A stretch of 26,975 bases of DNA from a virus: IMG/VR virus record IMGVR_UViG_3300035126_000446, positions 1 through 26,975 of that record; one strand, written 5' to 3'. The notes beneath the pieces were generated by a model. It did not search any database. It had not been told where the DNA came from and worked only from the letters and a program-made list of their open reading frames with translations. This document shows positions 10,038 to 26,975 of the stretch, in pieces. Within the stretch, counting starts at the first letter, position 1, and every line of letters begins with the position of its first letter. Made by a program: the position numbers and the translations under genes.

Positions 10038-10775
10038 ATGAGCGACAACAATACAGAAACAAAACCAACGATTAAACAGCCGACTCTCAAGGAGATGATC
10101 GGCGGAGAAAAGTTCCGCGAGCAAGTAGCATTGGCATTGCCGAAGCACATGACTCCTGAGCGGTTCTCTCGCATTGCTCTCACAGCATTGCAGCGCACAC
10201 CAAAGTTGCAGGATTGCACGCAGGCAAGCCTATTCAAATGCTTGCTAGACCTTTCTGCCGCTGGCCTTGAACCAGATGGACGACGTGCTTATCTGATTCC
10301 ATACGGATCTGAATGCACTCTGATTTTGTCATATATTGGTATGATCGAGCTTGTCCGTCGCTCCGGTGATGTTGTCAGCATTCGCTCTGAACTCGTGTGT
10401 GAGAATGATGAGTTCGTATGGGAAAATGGCAAAATCACGCACAAGGTCGAGTGGCGTAAACCTCGTGGAGAAATCCAAGCTGTGTATGCAGAAGCCGTTC
10501 TCAAATCCGGCGAGACTCAAACCGCTACAATGACCAAGGATGAAGTGGATGCTATCCGCAAGCGTTCACGCTCTGGTAACTCTGGTCCATGGGTTACGGA
10601 TTACGGTGAGATGGCAAAGAAGACCACTTTGCGCCGACTGTGCAAACTGCTGCCGCTTGCTAGCGAGATCGCAGAGCACATCGAGAAAGATGGCGATGTC
10701 GTTCTTGAGCGCGATGTAACTCCAAAACCAACAGCAAGCCTTGCGCTGCCATCAATGCAGGAGGTGGCAGCATGA
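10038..10775 (+). CDS. recT: RecT-family single-strand annealing protein
   Basis: 245 residues. LPKHMTPERFSRIALTALQR, then KLQDCTQASLFKCLLDLSAA, GLEPDGRRAYLIPYG and LILSYIGMIELVRRSG are the RecT core in its usual order. VWREKPRGE-type strands follow (here VEWRKPRGEIQAVYA), and the C-terminal half carries GPWVTDYGEMAKKTTLRRLC. RecT proteins anneal complementary single strands and pair with a 5'-3' exonuclease; here that gene follows directly, with a 4-base ATGA overlap. The start follows an A-rich leader with no Shine-Dalgarno sequence. Confidence 0.92.
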   Translation: MSDNNTETKPTIKQPTLKEMIGGEKFREQVALALPKHMTPERFSRIALTALQRTPKLQDCTQASLFKCLLDLSAAGLEPDGRRAYLIPYGSECTLILSYIGMIELVRRSGDVVSIRSELVCENDEFVWENGKITHKVEWRKPRGEIQAVYAEAVLKSGETQTATMTKDEVDAIRKRSRSGNSGPWVTDYGEMAKKTTLRRLCKLLPLASEIAEHIEKDGDVVLERDVTPKPTASLALPSMQEVAA

Positions 10776-11566
10776 TCATCCTAGACGAACAAACATACCG
10801 CTCTCATCCGGCTGCTAATTTCAGCAGCTTGAAGACGATCCTCAAGTCCCCAAAGCATTATCAGTCATCGCTCAAGAAATCCTTTGAGCCAACGATTGAG
10901 ATGACCATGGGGACGATTATTCACGAAGCTATTCTCGAAGGCAAACCATACAGCCACACCGTTAAGCCTGTTGATATTGATCTTCGGACCAAAGAAGGAA
11001 AGGCATGGCGCGATAAACACGCTGGCATGACCATTCTTTCTCTGGCTGAGCATGCAACAGTTGTCCGCACTGTTGAGGCTGTCCGCAATAGCCCAGATGC
11101 TCAATACATGCTCAACCTGTGTAAGCAGCGTGAGGTGGGTATTGTGAGCAATTACAAGGGTGTTGAGATCAAAGGGCGTCTCGACGCATACGGCCAGGAT
11201 GAAAGTGGTAAGCCTATCATCGTTGACTTCAAAACAACGAGTGAAGCTGATCCTGAGCTATGGGGACGCAAGGCATTTGGTCTGCGCTACATGATGCAGA
11301 TGCAGTATTACAAGGCGTTGCTCTCACTTGAGCTTGGCCTTGATGTGGAACCGGCCTATTTTTGGCTGGTTGCTGAGACAAACGAAGCCGCAGACGTGTG
11401 CATTTATCAGCCGCCACCAGAGGCAATTGCCATTGGTCAGGCTCAAATGGACTACGCCGTCGAAACTTATAAGAAGTGTCTTGAAACCGGACAGTGGCAA
11501 GGATACGGTAAAGGAATCATCTCACTAGATGTACCAATCTGGGAGCAAAAACGCTGGTTAAAATAA
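10772..11566 (+). CDS. RecE/ExoVIII-like PD-(D/E)XK exonuclease
   Basis: 264 residues. SSLKTILKSPKHYQ and MGTIIHEAILEG give the N-terminal helix and conserved His. GRLDAYG (about residue 134) and IIVDFKTTSEADP (about 147-159) supply the catalytic Asp and D-x-K. MQMQYYKALL (about 173-183) is the Q-x-x-x-Y-type helix. This is the order of RecE-type and Cas4-like nucleases, which resect one strand to load RecT. It starts with ATGA inside recT. A strong Shine-Dalgarno sequence, AGGAGGTGG, lies 6-8 bases upstream, inside the recT coding end. Confidence 0.88.
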   Translation: MIILDEQTYRSHPAANFSSLKTILKSPKHYQSSLKKSFEPTIEMTMGTIIHEAILEGKPYSHTVKPVDIDLRTKEGKAWRDKHAGMTILSLAEHATVVRTVEAVRNSPDAQYMLNLCKQREVGIVSNYKGVEIKGRLDAYGQDESGKPIIVDFKTTSEADPELWGRKAFGLRYMMQMQYYKALLSLELGLDVEPAYFWLVAETNEAADVCIYQPPPEAIAIGQAQMDYAVETYKKCLETGQWQGYGKGIISLDVPIWEQKRWLK

Positions 11567-12747: not shown

Positions 12748-12884
12748 CTCCCAGTAAAGAAAAGATCGCACTGTTTGATGACGCAATCGTCTATCACTCG
12801 TGCAAAGAGGAAATCAGCAAAGCTGAATCCGAATGGATTGAGTGGGCTAGAATTCGCGTGATTGAATTAGAAATGGAGGGATAA
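12744..12884 (+). CDS. Unknown small acidic helical protein
   Basis: 46 residues, mostly one amphipathic helix rich in Glu, Lys and Trp (EEISKAESEWIEWARIRVIE). It starts in an ATGA overlap. Its 3' end, ATGGAGGGATAA, provides a Shine-Dalgarno sequence for the GTG two bases beyond its stop. Confidence 0.45.
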   Translation: MTPSKEKIALFDDAIVYHSCKEEISKAESEWIEWARIRVIELEMEG

Positions 12885-12885
12885 T

Positions 12886-13233
12886 GTGACTCTAAATTAC
12901 CATGGAATCTTGCGACATTTCCCAAACGCCAGTCCCGATCTGCTCGCTTACAATTCCAAGCAAGTTACCATCATGGAACGAGATTCTAGGAATGCACCAT
13001 TGGGCAAGAAAAAAGTTCAAGGATCAACTAGCCAAAGAATTCTTGTCCGTGTTACGAGCGTCCGCAAACGACTTATCGACGAAGACAATTTGTGCGAAAA
13101 ATACCATGTCGATTTATGCAGATACGCTGGAATCATATCTGGCGATGAAGCAAGCAAAACAAAAATTGAGACAATCCAACGCAAGGCAGAAAAAGGCGAA
13201 GAAGAGCAAGTGATCATTGAGGTTTACCATTAA
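12886..13233 (+). CDS. RusA-like resolvase, C-terminal-type frame
   Basis: 115 residues from the GTG at 12886, which has GGAGG six bases upstream; an in-frame ATG at 12973 (MERDSRNAPLGKKK) gives 86. The C-terminal half (ILVRVTSVRKRLIDEDNLCE, YHVDLCRYAGIISGDEAS, then KGEEEQVIIEVYH) is the catalytic half of RusA-type Holliday-junction resolvases, with D-x-D-N-L and a later Asp. The first ~45 residues do not look like RusA; that part is encoded in the other frame (12902-13213). The TAA overlaps the next ATG by one base. Either a short resolvase, or the downstream part of a frameshifted product. Confidence 0.65.
   Translation: MTLNYHGILRHFPNASPDLLAYNSKQVTIMERDSRNAPLGKKKVQGSTSQRILVRVTSVRKRLIDEDNLCEKYHVDLCRYAGIISGDEASKTKIETIQRKAEKGEEEQVIIEVYH
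12902..13213 (+). CDS. Overlapping frame with RusA-like N-terminal half
   Basis: 103 residues in the frame one base later than 12886-13233. SLTIPSKLPSWNEILGMHHW, then ARKKFKDQLAKEFLSVLRA, matches the N-terminal strand, loop and first helix of RusA-like proteins. Beyond about residue 60 the sequence is a Thr/Lys/Ser-rich tail with no RusA motifs. A slippery A-AAA-AAG at 13009-13015 lies in this frame, and a -1 slip there would enter the catalytic frame to give a 110-residue fusion. Whether it is a separate protein, a frameshift product or a relic is open. Confidence 0.5.
   Translation: MESCDISQTPVPICSLTIPSKLPSWNEILGMHHWARKKFKDQLAKEFLSVLRASANDLSTKTICAKNTMSIYADTLESYLAMKQAKQKLRQSNARQKKAKKSK
13009..13015 (+). 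promoter_or_regulatory. Candidate -1 ribosomal frameshift heptamer
   Basis: A-AAA-AAG read in the phase of the ORF starting at 12902, the same heptamer as the E. coli dnaX site. A -1 shift joins the RusA-like N-terminal frame to the D-x-D-N-L frame. No strong downstream hairpin is visible beyond the short palindrome AAGAATTCTT at about 13033-13042, so efficiency is uncertain. The run of six A is also an indel hotspot. Confidence 0.4.
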
Positions 13234-14460: not shown

Positions 14461-15114
14461 ATGCACAACTGGTACGCAAATCTCCTCCTTGATCACCGAT
14501 GGCTAGCGAAGCGCAAAGAAGCACTCCATCATGATCACTATACCTGCCAGAACTGTGGCAGGAAAAACCCAGAAGTAACGCTTTGCGTCCACCATCTTGG
14601 ATACGTTACTGGTTGGATGCCGTGGGATTACCCATTGACGCTTCTTCAAACACTGTGCCTTGGTTGTCATGATGAAGTTCACGCAGGACAGAAGCCGCAT
14701 TACGTCATTTGCACCACTTGTGGAGGTCTGACACCAGATTCAAAAGCCAACGGAAGAAATAACAAGCACGAGTGGATTTGCGAGGATTGCATACAAAAAC
14801 AAGCAGTTGAAGAAATTGCCATGAAAACTGCATTTGTTTACCTTATGAAGAACACTAGAAATGGTTTCATTAAAATTGGATTTAGTAAAAATCCTAAATT
14901 TAGAGAAAAAACTCTTCAGTCTGAGGAGCCTGAAATCGAATTGCTGGCTTCTATTGAGGGCACTATCGACCTTGAGAAGGAGCTACATGCTAGATTTTCA
15001 GCCTATCGAATCAGGGGAGAATGGTTTCGATTAAGCGAGTTTGAAATAGAAGACGCTAAGCAATACGTCATTTTTCACCACGGTAGAATAAAGCCATCAG
15101 GAGACAAATTATGA
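14461..15114 (+). CDS. HNH nuclease fused to a GIY-YIG (T5orf172/MUG113-type) domain
   Basis: 217 residues in three parts. Residues 1-75 are an HNH nuclease: Cys29/Cys32 (CQNCG), His44-His45, and Cys66, Cys69, His70 and His74 (CLGCHDEVH). Residues 84-110 form a zinc ribbon (CTTC ... CEDC). Residues 124-195 are a GIY-YIG-type domain: FVYLMKNTRNGFIKIGFSKN, EKELHARF and GEWFRLS. Both ends are families that cut DNA, so this may be a homing endonuclease or a phage defence nuclease. It ends in an ATGA overlap with the replisome organiser. Confidence 0.8.
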   Translation: MHNWYANLLLDHRWLAKRKEALHHDHYTCQNCGRKNPEVTLCVHHLGYVTGWMPWDYPLTLLQTLCLGCHDEVHAGQKPHYVICTTCGGLTPDSKANGRNNKHEWICEDCIQKQAVEEIAMKTAFVYLMKNTRNGFIKIGFSKNPKFREKTLQSEEPEIELLASIEGTIDLEKELHARFSAYRIRGEWFRLSEFEIEDAKQYVIFHHGRIKPSGDKL

Positions 15115-18917: not shown

Positions 18918-19559
18918 CTACTTCATCCAACAGTGATCAGGCCACTTGTCAGCCAACTCAGGTTCTCGCATTGCCTCTGTAGGACACCAGCACTTCATGC
19001 GAAGATCACAACTGCAAATCTGGCACGTCTTCAATAGCGGATCGCTAGGTGTGTGCCGAGTCGTTAAGAACGAGTTGATATGCCCAATAAGGCTACGAGT
19101 TGAGCAGCTAACGCAGAACTCTACAATCTTATCTGCGTTCTTGGGGCAAGTTGCACAAATAGCCGCTCTTCGATTTGCCTCCGCTTGATCAACAAGCTCG
19201 CCAGCCAAGTAAGGCTTTACGGCAGAGTTATAGAACCGCTTCATCATCTGAAACGCTCCAATCTTTGCCTCGCTATCAGGATCGCGCTCGACGCACAAGT
19301 CAGGACGATGCTGGCAAAATGCTTCCTGCATGATGAGGCCAAGATTCGCTGGAATCTCGATGCCATTTCCTTCCAGGTGCTCTTGAACGGATTTCGCTAG
19401 ATCACGCCAGCCGTATCTGACGAACACTGTATTTGTGGATTCAACGTGGTAGAAGAAGCCGTATGTATCGCCAGTGATGACAGCCGTTGGAAATAACTCA
19501 CGCAGCTTCGCGTGGTTAAATTCCTTTGGGATGGTATTTTTGCGGATGAGTTCTTGCAT
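18918..19559 (-). CDS. Cys-rich protein coupled to the giant gene
   Basis: 213 residues from the ATG at 19559, in a TGATG overlap with the giant gene; a GTG at 19562 is also possible. The N-terminal ~130 residues are mixed (FPTAVITGDTYGFFYHVEST, FVRYGWRDLAKSVQEHL). The C-terminal ~80 residues hold at least eight Cys in paired motifs (AICATCP, FCVSCS, CQICSCDLRMKCWCP) plus HCW, probably two or more zinc sites. Similar Cys modules occur beside phage structural genes. Function unknown; expression is tied to the giant protein. Confidence 0.6.
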   Translation of the reverse strand: MQELIRKNTIPKEFNHAKLRELFPTAVITGDTYGFFYHVESTNTVFVRYGWRDLAKSVQEHLEGNGIEIPANLGLIMQEAFCQHRPDLCVERDPDSEAKIGAFQMMKRFYNSAVKPYLAGELVDQAEANRRAAICATCPKNADKIVEFCVSCSTRSLIGHINSFLTTRHTPSDPLLKTCQICSCDLRMKCWCPTEAMREPELADKWPDHCWMK

Positions 19560-22500
19560 CACGTTGCTGGTTGATAGCCCCTATAGACCTTCTTGAGCGC
19601 CCTATCGCGCACTTCGTCAGCTTTGTCCAACAGGAATGCTCTAGCGCGTTCTGTGGGCATCTGGAGAGCACGCTGGCCGTATCGCAGAAGCATCTGCTTG
19701 TAGCCTTTACCGGTTTCAAGGCTGTAGTTGTCAGCTTCTTCCTGCGTAAGAGAGCGACGACGAGCGCCCTTGCCAACCATGCGGTGTTCGGCATTAGCAG
19801 GAGTCAGCCAGATTCCACGGGAATTGAGAGCACCGAGAACCTTGTAGGCCGGATCGGTTGGCTTCACCATGAACTCGCGGCTTCCAGGATACACATTGCG
19901 TTGGATTTGTTGGCCCAAGATGTCGTAGTACTCCTTGCCTTCGTAGCGACGATAAACAGGGATGTGCGAGGCTGTCTTCTCCCACAGTGTTTCGTATTTA
20001 CGCAGATTTGGATCTTGCGCGTAGTCGATGTCCTTCAAGAATCGAGGAACGAAGCCGCCAGCGTAGCTCGACATCACCTTGGCAAAACGCTCCATGCGCT
20101 TCTCGTTGGGGTCTTTGCTGGACAAGCTGTTGCCGAATAGCTCTTGGAACTGAGAAAGAGCAGGAATATCAGCGGCAGCAGCAGCGCCAGACATTGCAGC
20201 ACTTGCCATAATTTGAGCCACGTTTTTGTCATTCCATTGATCTGGCGAGAAGCGGATCAAGTCAGAAAGACTTCCGATAGCTGCAAGCGCAGATGAAATA
20301 GGCCAGTTGGCGTAATTGAACACCTTGCCATTGATGCCGATGGTGTACTCCTTCTCGCCAGCGGCCAGCTTTTGCTGCTTCTTCTCAGGCGTTAGGTTAC
20401 CCCAGCCGCCGTTGATGAACCAACCGCGCTTCTCGTCATCCGGCTCGTCTGCGATGGCTTTCAGGATTTGATAGCCAGCAACGGATAGCATCACTCCAAT
20501 AAGCTGATTGCGCCGAATTGAGTCGATGAATGCTTCTTTTCCACTGATGCGATTAGGATCAAATTCAGCCTCAAATGCGCGAGCGAAACCAATGCCTGGA
20601 ATTAAGCTCAGACCTTGGTTGAATTTGTTGCCAGCGAAACGTGCGAAGCGAACACCGCCAAAGTTGGCTGCATTGTAAGCAGCGAACTGCATGAAGTAGG
20701 CGAATGCCAATTCAAGTCCAGAGAGAATCCTATCGCCATTCTGCGCTGAGTCATTCCATCCGCGTTGCGCTTGCTTCAGGAATCTATCAGCACCCGCTTC
20801 AGCATTGGTCACAAGCGATCTGATCGCACGATAGCCGACACCACCAAGTCCAGATGGATCAAGCGTCATGGCACCTTGTTGACCGAAGAAGTTGGCGTTC
20901 TCGGACACGTTGCCTAGCTTGTCCAGTTCTGCCATCATGTCGGCCAGAGCGTAGGAATCAAGAATAGCCTTGTCGCGTGCAGACTTTGGAGGAGTATTTT
21001 TGAAGTCTTGCTGAATAATGGCGTCCTTGTAAGGCTTCAAATCAGACTTCTTCTCCATTTCAGCAATCTTAGCTGGATCAAGTCCAATCTGACGGAATAC
21101 GATGGAAAGCGAACCTTCCTTGGTGAGTCCGCTATTGAATACGTCGAGAGCAGTCAGTAAACGGCTAACAGTCCGCATAAACAAGCCTGCGCTCTTGACG
21201 AGAATCTTGTCAGACTTCGCCATTTGTTCTGCCAGCTTGTTGCTCTTACCGATATTGCCCCACTGCATATTCTCGGTCACATCGTTCATAGATGGATCAA
21301 GAAACACTGGATCTCCGCTAACAAGGTATTGCCACGCGATACGGGCTTGTCGTCCATAGGCACTCAGCAATCGAGCGAGTGTTTTATATGCACCAGCAAG
21401 CTCAGATGGAAGCTGCTTTGGATTGGTGAATCCAGCAATGAACACGCGAGACAATGCTGTAGAAAGCTCGAATGCACCGCTGGCAACAGCAAGACCAATT
21501 GAGACGATAGTATTTGGACCAGAGAGAACACTGGAAACCCAGAAGTCAGCGATCATCTTTACCACTGGAATCTTGAGTTCGCCTTGCAGAACTTCAAGCA
21601 GCTTGTAGGCCGCAACTTGGCGCTTCACAGCGTTCAAACCTTCGTCTTGAAGAACCTCAATAAGCGAATTGATCTTCTCGCGCTCAGTCTCGGTGAACTC
21701 GGATTTGATGCCGAATTTCTCTGCCATGCGCTTTGCCAGTTCATCGTTATCGAAGATGCCCAAGTTGATGTCCTCAACGATACGCATCCGTTGCGCTTGA
21801 AGAGCTTTAGCGCCTTCTTTGCTGAGATTACCTTTTGCCTCCTGCTCACGGATCAATCGCTCCTGCATGCTGTCGAGAATGCGTTTACGCTTGGTTTCCC
21901 ATGCTTCAGTAAAAAGTTCTGCGAGACGTGCCTTTTGCTCTGGTGTTGCGTTCTTGAGTGATTCGTTGGCAGAGATGGCGTCAAAGATGCGCTGACGGTA
22001 TTCTTCGACTGTTTTTGCGCTTTGCGAGAGAAGCTGACGCCAAGGGATAGGCGTCCTGAGAGGAATTTCCTCGCCACGGCGCATGTTGTTGATCTCATTG
22101 ATCATTCGTTGCAGAGCTTTTGGGCCTTGCAGAATGTTGAATGCAGCCATTGCTTCAAGATCGGTCTTTTCGCGCTCAGCAGTCTTGAATAGGCGTTCAG
22201 CCACATCAGGTGAAACATCCAATTTAGCGAGTCGTTCAGCAAACTTTGATTTATCAACTGGATCAGAAACTTGATCTTTGAAAGCCTTGTTAATGGAGTC
22301 ACCAGACGTTGATTTGGATAGGTCTTTGGAACCTTGGCGCAACCTTTCCTCAGTAGAGTAAATAAGTCTGGATGCCTGTTTATCGGCAATCTCAACTCGG
22401 CGCTTCTCGATTTTGAATTTCTTCATTCGAGCCAAGTCGGCACGCTCTCTGGATGCGGTTAGGAATAAGCGTTCAGAAACCTCTTCACCAACCTTGAGTG

Positions 22501-25500
22501 CGTCCAGTCGTTCTGCGAATTGCTCAAATGATACAGGGTTTTTAACCTGATCTCTAAATGCTCGAATGATGGAGTCTTTTTGCTCCTTTTTTGACATGCC
22601 TTCAGGTGGATTCTTGAATCCTTGGCGATACAATTCCTCAAAGCGATAGACGATTTGAGATGCCTTGTTTTCAGCAATCTCAATTTCGTTGGCGATCTCT
22701 TCTGCTGTTGGCTCAATAGGTTGACCTTCTGCAACACGTTTCTCCACCGTGTCGATGATCTCCTTGCGCTTCTTGCGTTTTTTCTTCTCTGTTGGCGTAT
22801 CGGTTGGTGATTCCTCTCCAAGCAACTTGCCCATAATGGAGCGAAACTCAGCCAAGTCTTTTGCTTTAGCCTTTTCACGCTCTGATTTTGGCATCGTGAG
22901 AATGGCATTTAGCTCATTACGTTCTGCATCAGTAATTGATGCCTTGGATGCAGATACCTTCTCGGTAGCTTCAGCCCTAGCATAAAACGCAAAGCGCCTA
23001 ACTAGAGCTTTTGCCCTTTCCCACAAGGTCTTATCTGCACCTTCAAATACCTGTTCACCTTCTTTGATTAATGCCCACTCATCATTGTTGACGACATCCT
23101 GAGCTATCTCATCAGCCGCCTGCTGATTGGCCTTATCAGAATTCTCATACGAGTTTTGCGTGAAGCTAGTCGCGTTCTCGCTTCCGAAGTTGGAAATTAG
23201 GATATTTGTTCTTGCCTCCTTCATCACCTTCTCTGCGATTTCACGAATGAACATCCAGCTATAACGAGCTTTGTTCACAAGATAGCGTCGTTGCCCAAGG
23301 TGTTGACCTTTCTTACTGCCTACGCCTTGCCAGAATGCAGATAGGCGCTCGCTAAGTTTGGATAGTTGCTTCTTTCTTCCTGGAGACTTTTCCTCGCGTG
23401 CAGCGTTGTCCACACGTTGACGGACTTCGATAGTCAGAGCGTCTTGGGCCATCAAGTCTTGCTCAATGCCAATGCTTTCAAGGAACACTGGCGAGATGAC
23501 TGAGTTGGCAATATCATCAAGCGAAACACCTTCCTTCTCAAGGTTGTTGACGTATTTGATGGCAGCATCGCTGTATTCTTCAGCAGATTTTACCGCGCGA
23601 TCAATTGGCATGAAGTTTGTGAACTGAACACCTCCAAACGGAGCCTTAGCTGTGCCACTGTTGATGTCCTTAATATTCTTCGCGAACTGCTTGGTTGCAG
23701 CGTCTTCAGGATCAATCATAGATGCCCTTGCGCCAGTCTGCTGATAAGCCATCGCCAGCATCATTTCAGTCTCGTTGATACGATTCTTGAGAATATCGCC
23801 AAACTCGCCAGCCTTTGCAGGAGCGATGGCATCACGAATCTTTTGTAGCATTTTCATCACGCGCTCAATGAAGCGGCGGAATAGCGATGCTTCCGAAACC
23901 GTTTGGTGCATGTCTTGCTGAATCATCTGGCGCACAAACTCGGACATCACTGAACTGATGTTACCCTTTGGAGATGAAAATAGCTCATCAATGTCACTTG
24001 GAGTTGCGCCTGCACCGTAAAGTTGGCGAGATGCTTGAATCGCATCAAAAAGTATCCGTGTTGCTTTTACTGGATCATTGCTTGATGCCACAACCTTTCT
24101 CATGTCTTCCAACATGGATTTGTCGTTGTCGATGGCAAATTCAGTAAACGGCTTACGCCTTCCGCTGGCAATCCATGCCTCACGTTGAACTGCAAGATCA
24201 GCCGCATGAATCAGTTCCTCTACCAAAGCATTGCCAATAGCTTCAATAGCTCCGTCTTCATCTAGGCCGAAGCTAGTTCCAGCCACCCTTTTACCAAGTT
24301 GTGTGGCATTGATGAGGATGGTTGTGGCCCCATTTCCATCCGCCATAGCAGCCAGTCCACCTCCGATGTCGTTAGAAACTTCCTGAACTCTTGCTCCAAT
24401 TCTGGACGCAATTTGAGCATAATCGGCAAAAGTGTAGCCACTACCTGCCATTCCCACATTAGGTCTGGCCCCGGCTTCCCTTTTTCGATTTTCCCTTCCT
24501 TCTGTAGTTGTCTCACGATTTCTAGAAACTTCTGAGTCGATTCTTTGAATTTCAAGATTCTCTCTTTCGACTTTATCTCGGAATGAAGCCCCGGTATCAA
24601 TCTGTCCAGTCCCGCCAATTCCAGAACCTTGTCGTAAATCTCTTTCAAGTCCGTCCTTCTGCTGGGTGTAATTATATCTACCGGCTTTAGTAGCGCCGTA
24701 TGATTGAATTGGTAAAGGGACTCTCCCTCCATTTGATATAAAATTCCTGAGTTGAGTAAGTACTGTATCATATAATTCTTGGTTGATTTCTCCAGATGGA
24801 GCCGGATTCGCAGCAGACATACCACGAAGCATGGAAATGACATCATCCTTAGTCATGTCGGTAGGCGGCATGATAATCGCAGATCCAGCGCGTTCGCCTT
24901 CGGTGGTGAAGGTGTTGATGTTGCCGCGAATGTCGTTACCAGTATCGAAACGCTGGCTAAGTGGGACGGGTTTACCATCTTTGTAGGTGATGTTTTTTAA
25001 GGATGGGAAAGGCATTCCTTTTGACTTCCACCATCTTTCCTTACCGCCAGTGTAAGCGTTTTTGGTTCCCTCTTCTCCAGAATCATACTGCTCACCATCG
25101 AGGGTGAAATCGGGATTATTCTCTTCGATAAGGTCTGAGTATTTAAGCTGCTTCTGTGTTTTTACCGTTCCCGCCTCCATAAGAGGCTCGGTATCAGAAC
25201 CAACATCTTCGACTACTGAGCCAGAAACGACAAATACTGGACGATTCTGAGCAACCAAGTCGCTAACTCCAGCCACGGCCTGTTCACTTCCAGTGGGGAT
25301 GACGTATTTGTCACGAACTGTATCATGCCACGCGCCGATGACCGACACTCCTTTTTCACGAATACCGCCGTCAAATCCAGTGGATGCAACTTGTGAGCCT
25401 TCCGTATTTGTGGGCGGATTACCAAATCGGATGAATGTGGCTGGGTAGAATTTATCCCCTAACATGACGGTGTTTCGCACAAAGTCAGAGTAAGCAGCGT

Positions 25501-26975
25501 CCACCATCGCTTGCTGCTTGGCAACGTCTCCTGACACCACGGCTTGCATGTATTGGGCGTCTTGTGCATCAACCGACTCAGCAACCTCACCTTCAATCAA
25601 TAGCGCCCCACTGTCCTCATACAAGCCTTGCAGGATGCGGCTGAACTCGGTTTCCGTCAGATCAGGCATCGACTGCTTAACGATGCTGAAAAGCTCGTCT
25701 AGAGGCACCGATGGGCCATTTGTCTTCGGAGCAATATCGTATGCTGCACGAATAGTAGAACGCACTTCCTTGTCGCGTTCGTCGTAGTCAGTGTTTCGAG
25801 CTACTTCAGCGCCACTGTTGAATGCGGCATCGTTGGGTGAGTCGTAGGTGACAACAGAGGCTTGAGTTCCACTGCCACCAAACATCATAATTGCGTCTTC
25901 CTTGGCGATGTTCTCGCTGGAGTATGGAGCGATGATTTTGCGTTGTTCAGGTGTCAGTTTTTGACGGGATTGGACATCGCGGGCTTCGATTTCGCCTGCA
26001 AGCAAACGATACAGCATGTCCAATCCTTCGTTTCGCTTATTTAAGACCCAAGATCCACCGAGCTTCGTATCAACAACATTTATCGCAGAAAGGAGAGATG
26101 ATCGTGTTGAATCCCGGTCAATGTTAAGGTTCTTTTTTTGATACTCCCATATAGAGTTAATCGAATCCTGAATTTTCGATATTGAGTCCTCAATGGATTT
26201 GATTGTTTTTTGATTCGGGCCACCAAAACCAATGAAAGATTTTTTGGATCGCTCTTGCTCTAGTGCAGTAACTAGGCCAGCTATTTCCGCTTTATATTTT
26301 TTAATGCCTCGGTAGGCATCTTTAAACTTAGCTGCATCTAAGATGTCAGCTTTTGTAATTAAGTTATCAGGAGTTCCCCCAATAGAGAAGCCTTCTTTCT
26401 TTTGAATAAAGTGCTGTAATTCATGAAGTATTGTCGATGTTGATTCATCACTAATTTGACCGTTTTTTCCAATCGCAACCGTTGCGGTAATGACATCGTT
26501 TCCATTAATTGTTCGGTAAGAACCTTGAACCACATTTCCGGCTATTGGGAAAAATGAAATATTTGCAGCATCAGGATATGCCGCAAAAAGATCATCGTGA
26601 CGATATACATCCGACAGTTTTAGTACCTTGCCGGAATTAATTCGATCTAATATAGAAGATACCGTCAATTGACTGAAAGCCGGACCACCATATATCTTCG
26701 TGGCTTTGTCCACAAAACTATTCACCTCTTCAAAAGAAGCCACCTCATCCGGAACTTCCCATCGCATCTTACCATCGTATTCGCCAGGAAACCATCCAGT
26801 GACGGCGCGAATCTCTTCGCTCGTCTTGCCTGCTGCGGCCATCACCTTTGCAGTGTCCAACGAGTCGCGCATGAACTGACGACGTTCTTCGGGAAGATTT
26901 TCAATGGAGGTTTCGCCTGCGTAACTCATCCGCACGCCGCCACCATTCACCAGCATGTCAGCATTAGCCTTCTCC
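19559..26975 (-). CDS. Giant phage large polyvalent protein, N-terminus cut by the window
   Basis: At least 2471 residues: an ATG occurs at 26956, but the frame stays open to the right edge, so the true start may lie outside. Positions are from that ATG. Residues 47-70 hold TGWFPGEYDGKMRWEVPD, a motif typical of these proteins. Residues 178-182 are HELQH in TILHELQHFIQ, a zinc-metallopeptidase signature. A second peptidase-like motif, EELIHAAD, is near 912. Two ~80-residue helical repeats lie near 1429-1515 and 1524-1600. Hydrophobic helices occur near 1800-1830, 2085, 2155 and 2220. Phage polyvalent proteins are thought to be injected with the DNA and to disarm host defences. Confidence 0.8.
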   Translation of the reverse strand, partial: EKANADMLVNGGGVRMSYAGETSIENLPEERRQFMRDSLDTAKVMAAAGKTSEEIRAVTGWFPGEYDGKMRWEVPDEVASFEEVNSFVDKATKIYGGPAFSQLTVSSILDRINSGKVLKLSDVYRHDDLFAAYPDAANISFFPIAGNVVQGSYRTINGNDVITATVAIGKNGQISDESTSTILHELQHFIQKKEGFSIGGTPDNLITKADILDAAKFKDAYRGIKKYKAEIAGLVTALEQERSKKSFIGFGGPNQKTIKSIEDSISKIQDSINSIWEYQKKNLNIDRDSTRSSLLSAINVVDTKLGGSWVLNKRNEGLDMLYRLLAGEIEARDVQSRQKLTPEQRKIIAPYSSENIAKEDAIMMFGGSGTQASVVTYDSPNDAAFNSGAEVARNTDYDERDKEVRSTIRAAYDIAPKTNGPSVPLDELFSIVKQSMPDLTETEFSRILQGLYEDSGALLIEGEVAESVDAQDAQYMQAVVSGDVAKQQAMVDAAYSDFVRNTVMLGDKFYPATFIRFGNPPTNTEGSQVASTGFDGGIREKGVSVIGAWHDTVRDKYVIPTGSEQAVAGVSDLVAQNRPVFVVSGSVVEDVGSDTEPLMEAGTVKTQKQLKYSDLIEENNPDFTLDGEQYDSGEEGTKNAYTGGKERWWKSKGMPFPSLKNITYKDGKPVPLSQRFDTGNDIRGNINTFTTEGERAGSAIIMPPTDMTKDDVISMLRGMSAANPAPSGEINQELYDTVLTQLRNFISNGGRVPLPIQSYGATKAGRYNYTQQKDGLERDLRQGSGIGGTGQIDTGASFRDKVERENLEIQRIDSEVSRNRETTTEGRENRKREAGARPNVGMAGSGYTFADYAQIASRIGARVQEVSNDIGGGLAAMADGNGATTILINATQLGKRVAGTSFGLDEDGAIEAIGNALVEELIHAADLAVQREAWIASGRRKPFTEFAIDNDKSMLEDMRKVVASSNDPVKATRILFDAIQASRQLYGAGATPSDIDELFSSPKGNISSVMSEFVRQMIQQDMHQTVSEASLFRRFIERVMKMLQKIRDAIAPAKAGEFGDILKNRINETEMMLAMAYQQTGARASMIDPEDAATKQFAKNIKDINSGTAKAPFGGVQFTNFMPIDRAVKSAEEYSDAAIKYVNNLEKEGVSLDDIANSVISPVFLESIGIEQDLMAQDALTIEVRQRVDNAAREEKSPGRKKQLSKLSERLSAFWQGVGSKKGQHLGQRRYLVNKARYSWMFIREIAEKVMKEARTNILISNFGSENATSFTQNSYENSDKANQQAADEIAQDVVNNDEWALIKEGEQVFEGADKTLWERAKALVRRFAFYARAEATEKVSASKASITDAERNELNAILTMPKSEREKAKAKDLAEFRSIMGKLLGEESPTDTPTEKKKRKKRKEIIDTVEKRVAEGQPIEPTAEEIANEIEIAENKASQIVYRFEELYRQGFKNPPEGMSKKEQKDSIIRAFRDQVKNPVSFEQFAERLDALKVGEEVSERLFLTASRERADLARMKKFKIEKRRVEIADKQASRLIYSTEERLRQGSKDLSKSTSGDSINKAFKDQVSDPVDKSKFAERLAKLDVSPDVAERLFKTAEREKTDLEAMAAFNILQGPKALQRMINEINNMRRGEEIPLRTPIPWRQLLSQSAKTVEEYRQRIFDAISANESLKNATPEQKARLAELFTEAWETKRKRILDSMQERLIREQEAKGNLSKEGAKALQAQRMRIVEDINLGIFDNDELAKRMAEKFGIKSEFTETEREKINSLIEVLQDEGLNAVKRQVAAYKLLEVLQGELKIPVVKMIADFWVSSVLSGPNTIVSIGLAVASGAFELSTALSRVFIAGFTNPKQLPSELAGAYKTLARLLSAYGRQARIAWQYLVSGDPVFLDPSMNDVTENMQWGNIGKSNKLAEQMAKSDKILVKSAGLFMRTVSRLLTALDVFNSGLTKEGSLSIVFRQIGLDPAKIAEMEKKSDLKPYKDAIIQQDFKNTPPKSARDKAILDSYALADMMAELDKLGNVSENANFFGQQGAMTLDPSGLGGVGYRAIRSLVTNAEAGADRFLKQAQRGWNDSAQNGDRILSGLELAFAYFMQFAAYNAANFGGVRFARFAGNKFNQGLSLIPGIGFARAFEAEFDPNRISGKEAFIDSIRRNQLIGVMLSVAGYQILKAIADEPDDEKRGWFINGGWGNLTPEKKQQKLAAGEKEYTIGINGKVFNYANWPISSALAAIGSLSDLIRFSPDQWNDKNVAQIMASAAMSGAAAAADIPALSQFQELFGNSLSSKDPNEKRMERFAKVMSSYAGGFVPRFLKDIDYAQDPNLRKYETLWEKTASHIPVYRRYEGKEYYDILGQQIQRNVYPGSREFMVKPTDPAYKVLGALNSRGIWLTPANAEHRMVGKGARRRSLTQEEADNYSLETGKGYKQMLLRYGQRALQMPTERARAFLLDKADEVRDRALKKVYRGYQPAT

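Follow-up and report, generated by a model that had tools for sequence, protein, structure and literature searches.

Two nested, overlapping phage genes that probably encode the halves of a RusA-type junction endonuclease

The locus described here probably encodes a RusA-type junction endonuclease composed of two polypeptides, specified by nested overlapping genes, for which we infer translation, assembly and DNA cutting from sequence. It lies in a window of 26,975 bases, the whole stretch of viral DNA that was analysed (IMGVR_UViG_3300035126_000446, positions 1 to 26,975). RusA is a dimer that cleaves Holliday junctions. In the proposed arrangement, two proteins, A and B, would be translated separately from one mRNA. 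Gene B would provide the catalytic half, preceded by an N-terminal peptide and a loose linker; this half extends from β2 to the C-terminus and would comprise β2, the catalytic helix with the Asp/Lys active site and the remaining strands. Gene A, beginning at its own ATG inside B and read in the +1 frame, would provide β1, the P-S-W-N loop, α1 and a basic C-terminal helix. A would pack on B and complete the RusA fold, and the complex would resolve branched DNA produced by the adjoining RecT and nuclease module. The N-terminal peptide of B, of the FPNAS or another type, may serve to dock the enzyme onto a partner. It also appears fairly likely that the two halves of one enzyme domain have come to lie on top of each other in overlapping frames, with the same bases encoding the end of a helix and the next strand, and that this state has been stable in phages whose hosts are Verrucomicrobia, archaea or, in many cases, unassigned.

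An earlier note on this DNA had placed the N-terminal features of RusA in one frame and its catalytic half in another, with partly common bases; the frame positions, the motif placement and the sharing of bases were all confirmed in the sequence, as was the GTG start of frame B with its Shine-Dalgarno element (Table 1). Frame A is the +1 frame relative to frame B. In the window sequence, A contains LPSWNEILGMHHW and the helix, and B contains RLIDEDNLCEKYHVDLCRYAG. The common DNA encodes not only the end of α1 in A and strand β2 in B, but also, unremarked in the earlier note, the FPNAS peptide of B and β1 of A. In the AF2 model of B, helices 5–11 and 17–22 are followed by a low-confidence region (23–50), a predicted strand (52–60), a helix (68–80) and two C-terminal strands (92–100 and 108–114). 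The AF2 model of A contains a helix at residues 33–57, which spans the dual-constrained segment, and a second one at 65–102. The bases of the end of the first A helix are those that encode the predicted B strand 52–60.

Table 1. Features of the nested gene pair and of the adjoining recombination genes in the window
Feature	Position	Strand	Description or basis
RecT ssDNA-annealing protein	10038..10775	+	Pfam RecT 9e-47
PDDEXK (DUF3799) exonuclease-like gene	10772..11566	+	Pfam 6e-21
Shine-Dalgarno GGAGG	12875..12879	+	Six bases 5' of the B GTG
Frame B gene	12886..13233	+	115 aa, GTG start; N-terminal FPNAS-type peptide, unstructured middle, putative RusA catalytic half
Frame A gene, nested in B	12902..13213	+	103 aa, ATG start; putative RusA β1/α1 half, basic C-terminal helix
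B-frame motif ILRxFPNASxxFLxxN	12907..12954	+	Overlies the A start; candidate docking peptide
A-frame β1 and P-S-W-N motif (SLTIPSKLPSWN)	12944..12979	+	A-half profile alignment to canonical RusA
A-frame helix α1 (HWARKKFKDQLAKEFLSVLRASAND)	12998..13072	+	Second positions of A conserved at codons −24, −20, −16 and −12; AF2
AAAAAAG heptamer	13009..13015	+	Six A at 13009–13014; not conserved
Dual-constrained segment	13036..13059	+	End of α1 (A) and strand β2 (B) from common bases
B-frame catalytic motif D65-x-D67-N ... K72 ... D76 ... D87	13078..13146	+	Invariant residues
A-frame tail, predicted basic helix	13094..13207	+	Out-of-phase reading through the B catalytic region; AF2 helix 65–102

Canonical phage RusA proteins of the single-chain type were aligned to serve as the reference for assigning the two halves. 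The profile of the A half aligns to residues 4–35 of canonical RusA (hhalign 76%, 2e-5), with β1, P-S-x-N and the α1 half present, and the profile of the B half aligns to residues 50–103 (97%, 3e-11). A chimera of window A through the helix and window B matches the RusA family phrog_1682 at 2e-6, whereas neither frame alone gave a RusA match in the same search. A corresponding chimera of the A helix and B from another contig (L145) matches phrog_34 at 4.5e-8. The canonical L269 protein matches phrog_1682 at 2e-22 and E. coli RusA (1q8r and 2h8c) weakly, with E values of 0.004 and 0.01. The catalytic residues D65, D67, K72, D76 and D87 are invariant in 20 diverse B sequences, in which the DxDN...K...D...D set is present. 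A stand-alone B protein (L264) scores 24.0 against the Pfam RusA cut-off of 22.8, the match covering profile positions 77–124, that is, the C-terminal half only. The window A, B and fusion sequences had no Pfam match, and direct comparison of the window proteins with Pfam, PDB and phage collections returned nothing useful. A Foldseek search with the B model gave no match, the confidence of the model being too low for the result to be informative. The membership of the window pair in the RusA family is supported by these profile bridges.

We considered whether both proteins are made while A acts as a regulator or partner that arose from the N-terminus of RusA, instead of as an enzyme half, which would account for the conserved basic C-terminal helix that distinguishes A from canonical RusA. 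B is devoid of the β1 and α1 elements carried by the canonical chains compared, however, and A supplies exactly those, making this role for A unlikely. The two-protein enzyme has points against it as well: the A start of the window group has no Shine-Dalgarno sequence, and a chain of such small size may be unstable alone.

Relatives were collected from viral contigs with A, B and the alignments of each as queries, which gave over a hundred contigs, and further ones came from two Verrucomicrobium isolates and one Verrucomicrobia MAG. In every relative carrying the A motif beside the catalytic half, frame A carries P-S/T-x-N and frame B carries DxD, at a spacing of about 35–37 codons (34.67–36.67). 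A script run over all loci found that the 100 distinct overlap sequences have one and the same phase, with A to B in a −1 relation. The conservation of the overlap, which the earlier note had left to be checked, is seen in every relative found, and the layout spans isolates of Verrucomicrobium, one archaeal virus and numerous metagenomic phages. Within clade 1, frame-B identity to the window drops to about 40%. Clade 2 is characterized by DPDGISAKA in B and LPTWNRILAMHHW in A and includes the Methanomicrobiales-assigned virus vir555. Between the two clades, the A halves are clearly homologous (hhalign 99%, 9e-18). In the vir555 record (L243 5840–6260, BK063671.1), only frame A is annotated, as a hypothetical protein (vir555_00024), and the catalytic RusA frame was missed.

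Continuous ORFs occur only in distant canonical RusA proteins (L269, L162 and those of Gordonia, Listeria and Lactobacillus phages), and never inside the lineage, although the earlier note had allowed that homologues might prove to be single ORFs. When 241 Verrucomicrobiota genomes were searched with phrog_1682, two matches outside the lineage were obtained, one of which is a canonical RusA (L162). Because every relative that has the A motif is split and none is a single chain, the window system, as judged from these comparisons, is a split derivative of RusA (PF05866) and not a canonical member.

The B motif ILRxFPNASxxFLxxN is kept in many relatives, and other N-terminal peptides substitute for it in others; a phage search with the FPNAS peptide found no match. 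Unrelated short B N-termini (L027, L031, L034, L046, L047, L099 and L145) precede the same catalytic half, among them FPNASxxFL, LPxHLxxQVxAQL, LRANGYDLQSDGSW and a CxxC zinc-like motif, in the manner of interchangeable docking tags. Just 5' of the A start, a short run of A differs in length between L035 (1430–1530) and L034 and L036–L038. Its length in L035 puts the N-terminal peptide in frame with A and not with B, which could reflect a variant, slippage or an error.

Coding constraint was examined in a diverse set of 40 non-redundant sequences (<88% identity to one another), whose common ancestry means that the counts are not fully independent. Codons were numbered from DxD, with negative numbers 5' of it. 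In the phase profile of these sequences, the freest position before codon −17 is the third position of A, and after codon −9 it is the third position of B. Both frames are held at codons −16 to −12, and the switch of variability falls within −16 to −9. The held second positions of A at codons −24, −20, −16 and −12 are hydrophobic and four apart, like one face of a helix. Substitutions were also compared in 21 close pairs, no sequence being common to two pairs. In the A half, 67% of the changes are silent in A and not in B (23% expected), and in the B half, 57% are silent in B and not in A (24% expected). An apparently stronger constraint on the A tail, from A-silent/B-silent sites, is based on few sites and is possibly inflated by transition bias, and was given no weight.

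Frame openness was compared with expectations from synonymous resampling with the codon usage of flanking genes. Frame A is open through the catalytic region of B in all 40 sequences, compared with 11.3 expected, and frame B is open through the A half in all 40 as well (12.2 expected). An A-frame ATG between the last A stop and β1 is present in 39 of 40, compared with 11.1 expected from shuffling and with 4 of 40 in the third frame as control. A nested second gene with its own start, and selection on both frames, are the hallmarks of an embedded overlapping pair, and the locus has them. At the level of sequence, conservation, start codons and openness mark both frames as coding.

In three contigs, the two halves are separated. 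A and B of L264, L265 and L266 (the same contigs as L270–L272) are two non-overlapping genes with an HNH endonuclease gene between them, and the stand-alone B of the L264 type has 69 aa. For the L264 A protein, the DNA suggests a TTG start. The stand-alone A is homologous to the overlapping A frames, including the tail (7e-8 to vir555, residues 5–83), and a comparison restricted to the tails of separate and clade 2 overlapping A proteins gave z scores of 2–9. The tail of the separate A retains YxxxIRPS, which in overlapping members is the out-of-phase reading of GILxDDSP of B. Because this motif is kept where A and B no longer share bases, the separated form is most simply explained, from these sequences, as a descendant of an overlapping ancestor. 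In L238 (around 1500–1600), a TAA within the A half ends frame B, which opens again with an ATG immediately 5' of β2, leaving a minimal B of ~70 aa. The HNH gene of the separated arrangement starts inside the A gene, in the former B frame (L270 3001–3888 and L272 3001–4418), and an SSB-like gene is located just upstream in L270 and L272.

A Shine-Dalgarno sequence precedes B in the window and in some relatives, and A has one in some members (GAGGAGG in vir555, GGGAGG in L268 and AAGGA in L248), whereas none is found near the A ATG of the window. The start codons of B and A are 4–20 bases apart in many members, so that one ribosome site could feed both. In E. coli, neighbouring starts in different frames are both used at AUGUG sites (PMC9841429). 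This ambiguous initiation resembles the present loci in having two close start codons in different frames; it differs in that the starts there form an AUGUG/GUGUG motif, whereas here they are usually 4–20 bases apart and their use is predicted. The window itself has an ATGTG at 12884–12888, in which an A-frame ATG, followed at once by TGA, overlaps the GTG of B, resembling the E. coli AUGUG sites.

The earlier note had left three options, of which two overlapping genes are supported, a programmed frameshift is not supported, and an indel is refuted by the conserved layout. A programmed −1 ribosomal frameshift would join A to B as one chain at a slippery site. The A-AAA-AAG heptamer at 13009–13015 is indeed in the phase that a −1 shift from A into B requires, giving a fusion of 110 aa as the earlier note had stated, and A lies 5' of the catalytic half of B, in the −1 relation, in every member. 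The likeness to dnaX-type −1 frameshifting ends with this in-phase heptamer, which is shared by the window and a few relatives: it is present at the window's site in 3 of 40 sequences, and any XXXYYYZ within codons −30 to −9 in 9 of 40. Contrary to what is expected of a dnaX-type site, A does not end soon after it but continues, in 40 of 40, to near the end of B; A also retains a separate ATG, and B starts at codons of its own, as in L238, or is on a separate gene, as in L264–L266. A −1 fusion would moreover have ~34 residues between PSWN and DxD, whereas 53 residues separate the Asn of PSxN from the first catalytic Asp in canonical RusA (two chains measured). Since the end of α1 in A and β2 in B come from the same bases, the fusion cannot hold both, and one of these conserved elements would be lost. 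We therefore regard the frameshift as improbable and the heptamer as probably incidental Lys codons. The PRFect study lists 'RusA/RuvC' among frameshift genes, and its one Holliday-junction reference (39) is the E. coli ruvC paper.

A shortened RusA working with B alone, A being a chance open frame, would be in keeping with the presence of all catalytic residues and a Shine-Dalgarno start in B. It is nevertheless very unlikely, because conservation follows the codon positions of A itself, and A begins at an ATG of its own, is open well above chance and persists as a separate gene. An ordinary single-frame rusA disrupted by an indel from sequencing or assembly, to which the run of six A at 13009–13014 might have pointed, was rejected and has a negligible probability, because one layout in constant phase recurs in 100 distinct sequences from independent projects and from isolate genomes, including those of Verrucomicrobium, with none in a single frame.

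With regard to the two-polypeptide resolvase, the RecT and PDDEXK nuclease genes of the window are consistent with a role in recombination. RecT and DUF3799 neighbours are common to close relatives only, so the context is uninformative for distant members. Elsewhere in the window, one protein (14461–15114) joins an HNH-like N-terminus to a T5orf172/MUG113 (GIY-YIG type) domain, and a 2465-aa open frame on the minus strand (19559–26956) carries, close to the N-terminus, a domain of the LPD23 'large polyvalent protein' type.

From these sequences, many phages of microbes from lakes, soil and elsewhere appear to make RusA as two halves. Because gene callers retain only one of the two frames, as in vir555, where the catalytic one was missed, such resolvases can be invisible in databases. 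The A/B pair offers a natural test of the capacity of DNA to encode two frames, of the assembly of a split enzyme and of initiation in two frames a few bases apart. In a literature search mostly covering sources outside subscription journals, which makes an absence weak evidence, we found no earlier report of a split or overlapping RusA, nor any account of one ancestral domain whose two halves are specified by overlapping frames.

In most overlapping gene pairs, the two proteins are unrelated and one of them is new. At this locus, the frames both appear to derive from a single old enzyme, so that each half restricts the changes open to the other. The spanins Rz/Rz1, which exist in embedded, separate and single-chain versions among phages (PMC6139136), likewise have a gene inside another gene in a different frame; their partners are different proteins with different roles, whereas the present ones are halves of one ancestral enzyme domain. 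In phage genes-in-pieces that homing endonucleases have split, namely Aeh1 nrdA with mobE and T4 topoisomerase with mobA, two polypeptides must reassemble (PMC2988022). They are similar in that one enzyme is encoded as two polypeptides, and in L264–L266 an HNH gene likewise separates the halves; the pieces of those split genes are free of overlap, whereas the halves of the window share DNA, and an endonuclease gene between the halves is absent from the window and present only in L264–L266/L270–L272. In comparison with RusA itself (PF05866; 1q8r, 2h8c; phrog_1682, phrog_34), β1-P-S-x-N-α1 is followed by DxDN...K...D...D in the same order, but the known members are one continuous chain, whereas these elements are here distributed over two overlapping frames and never found in one.
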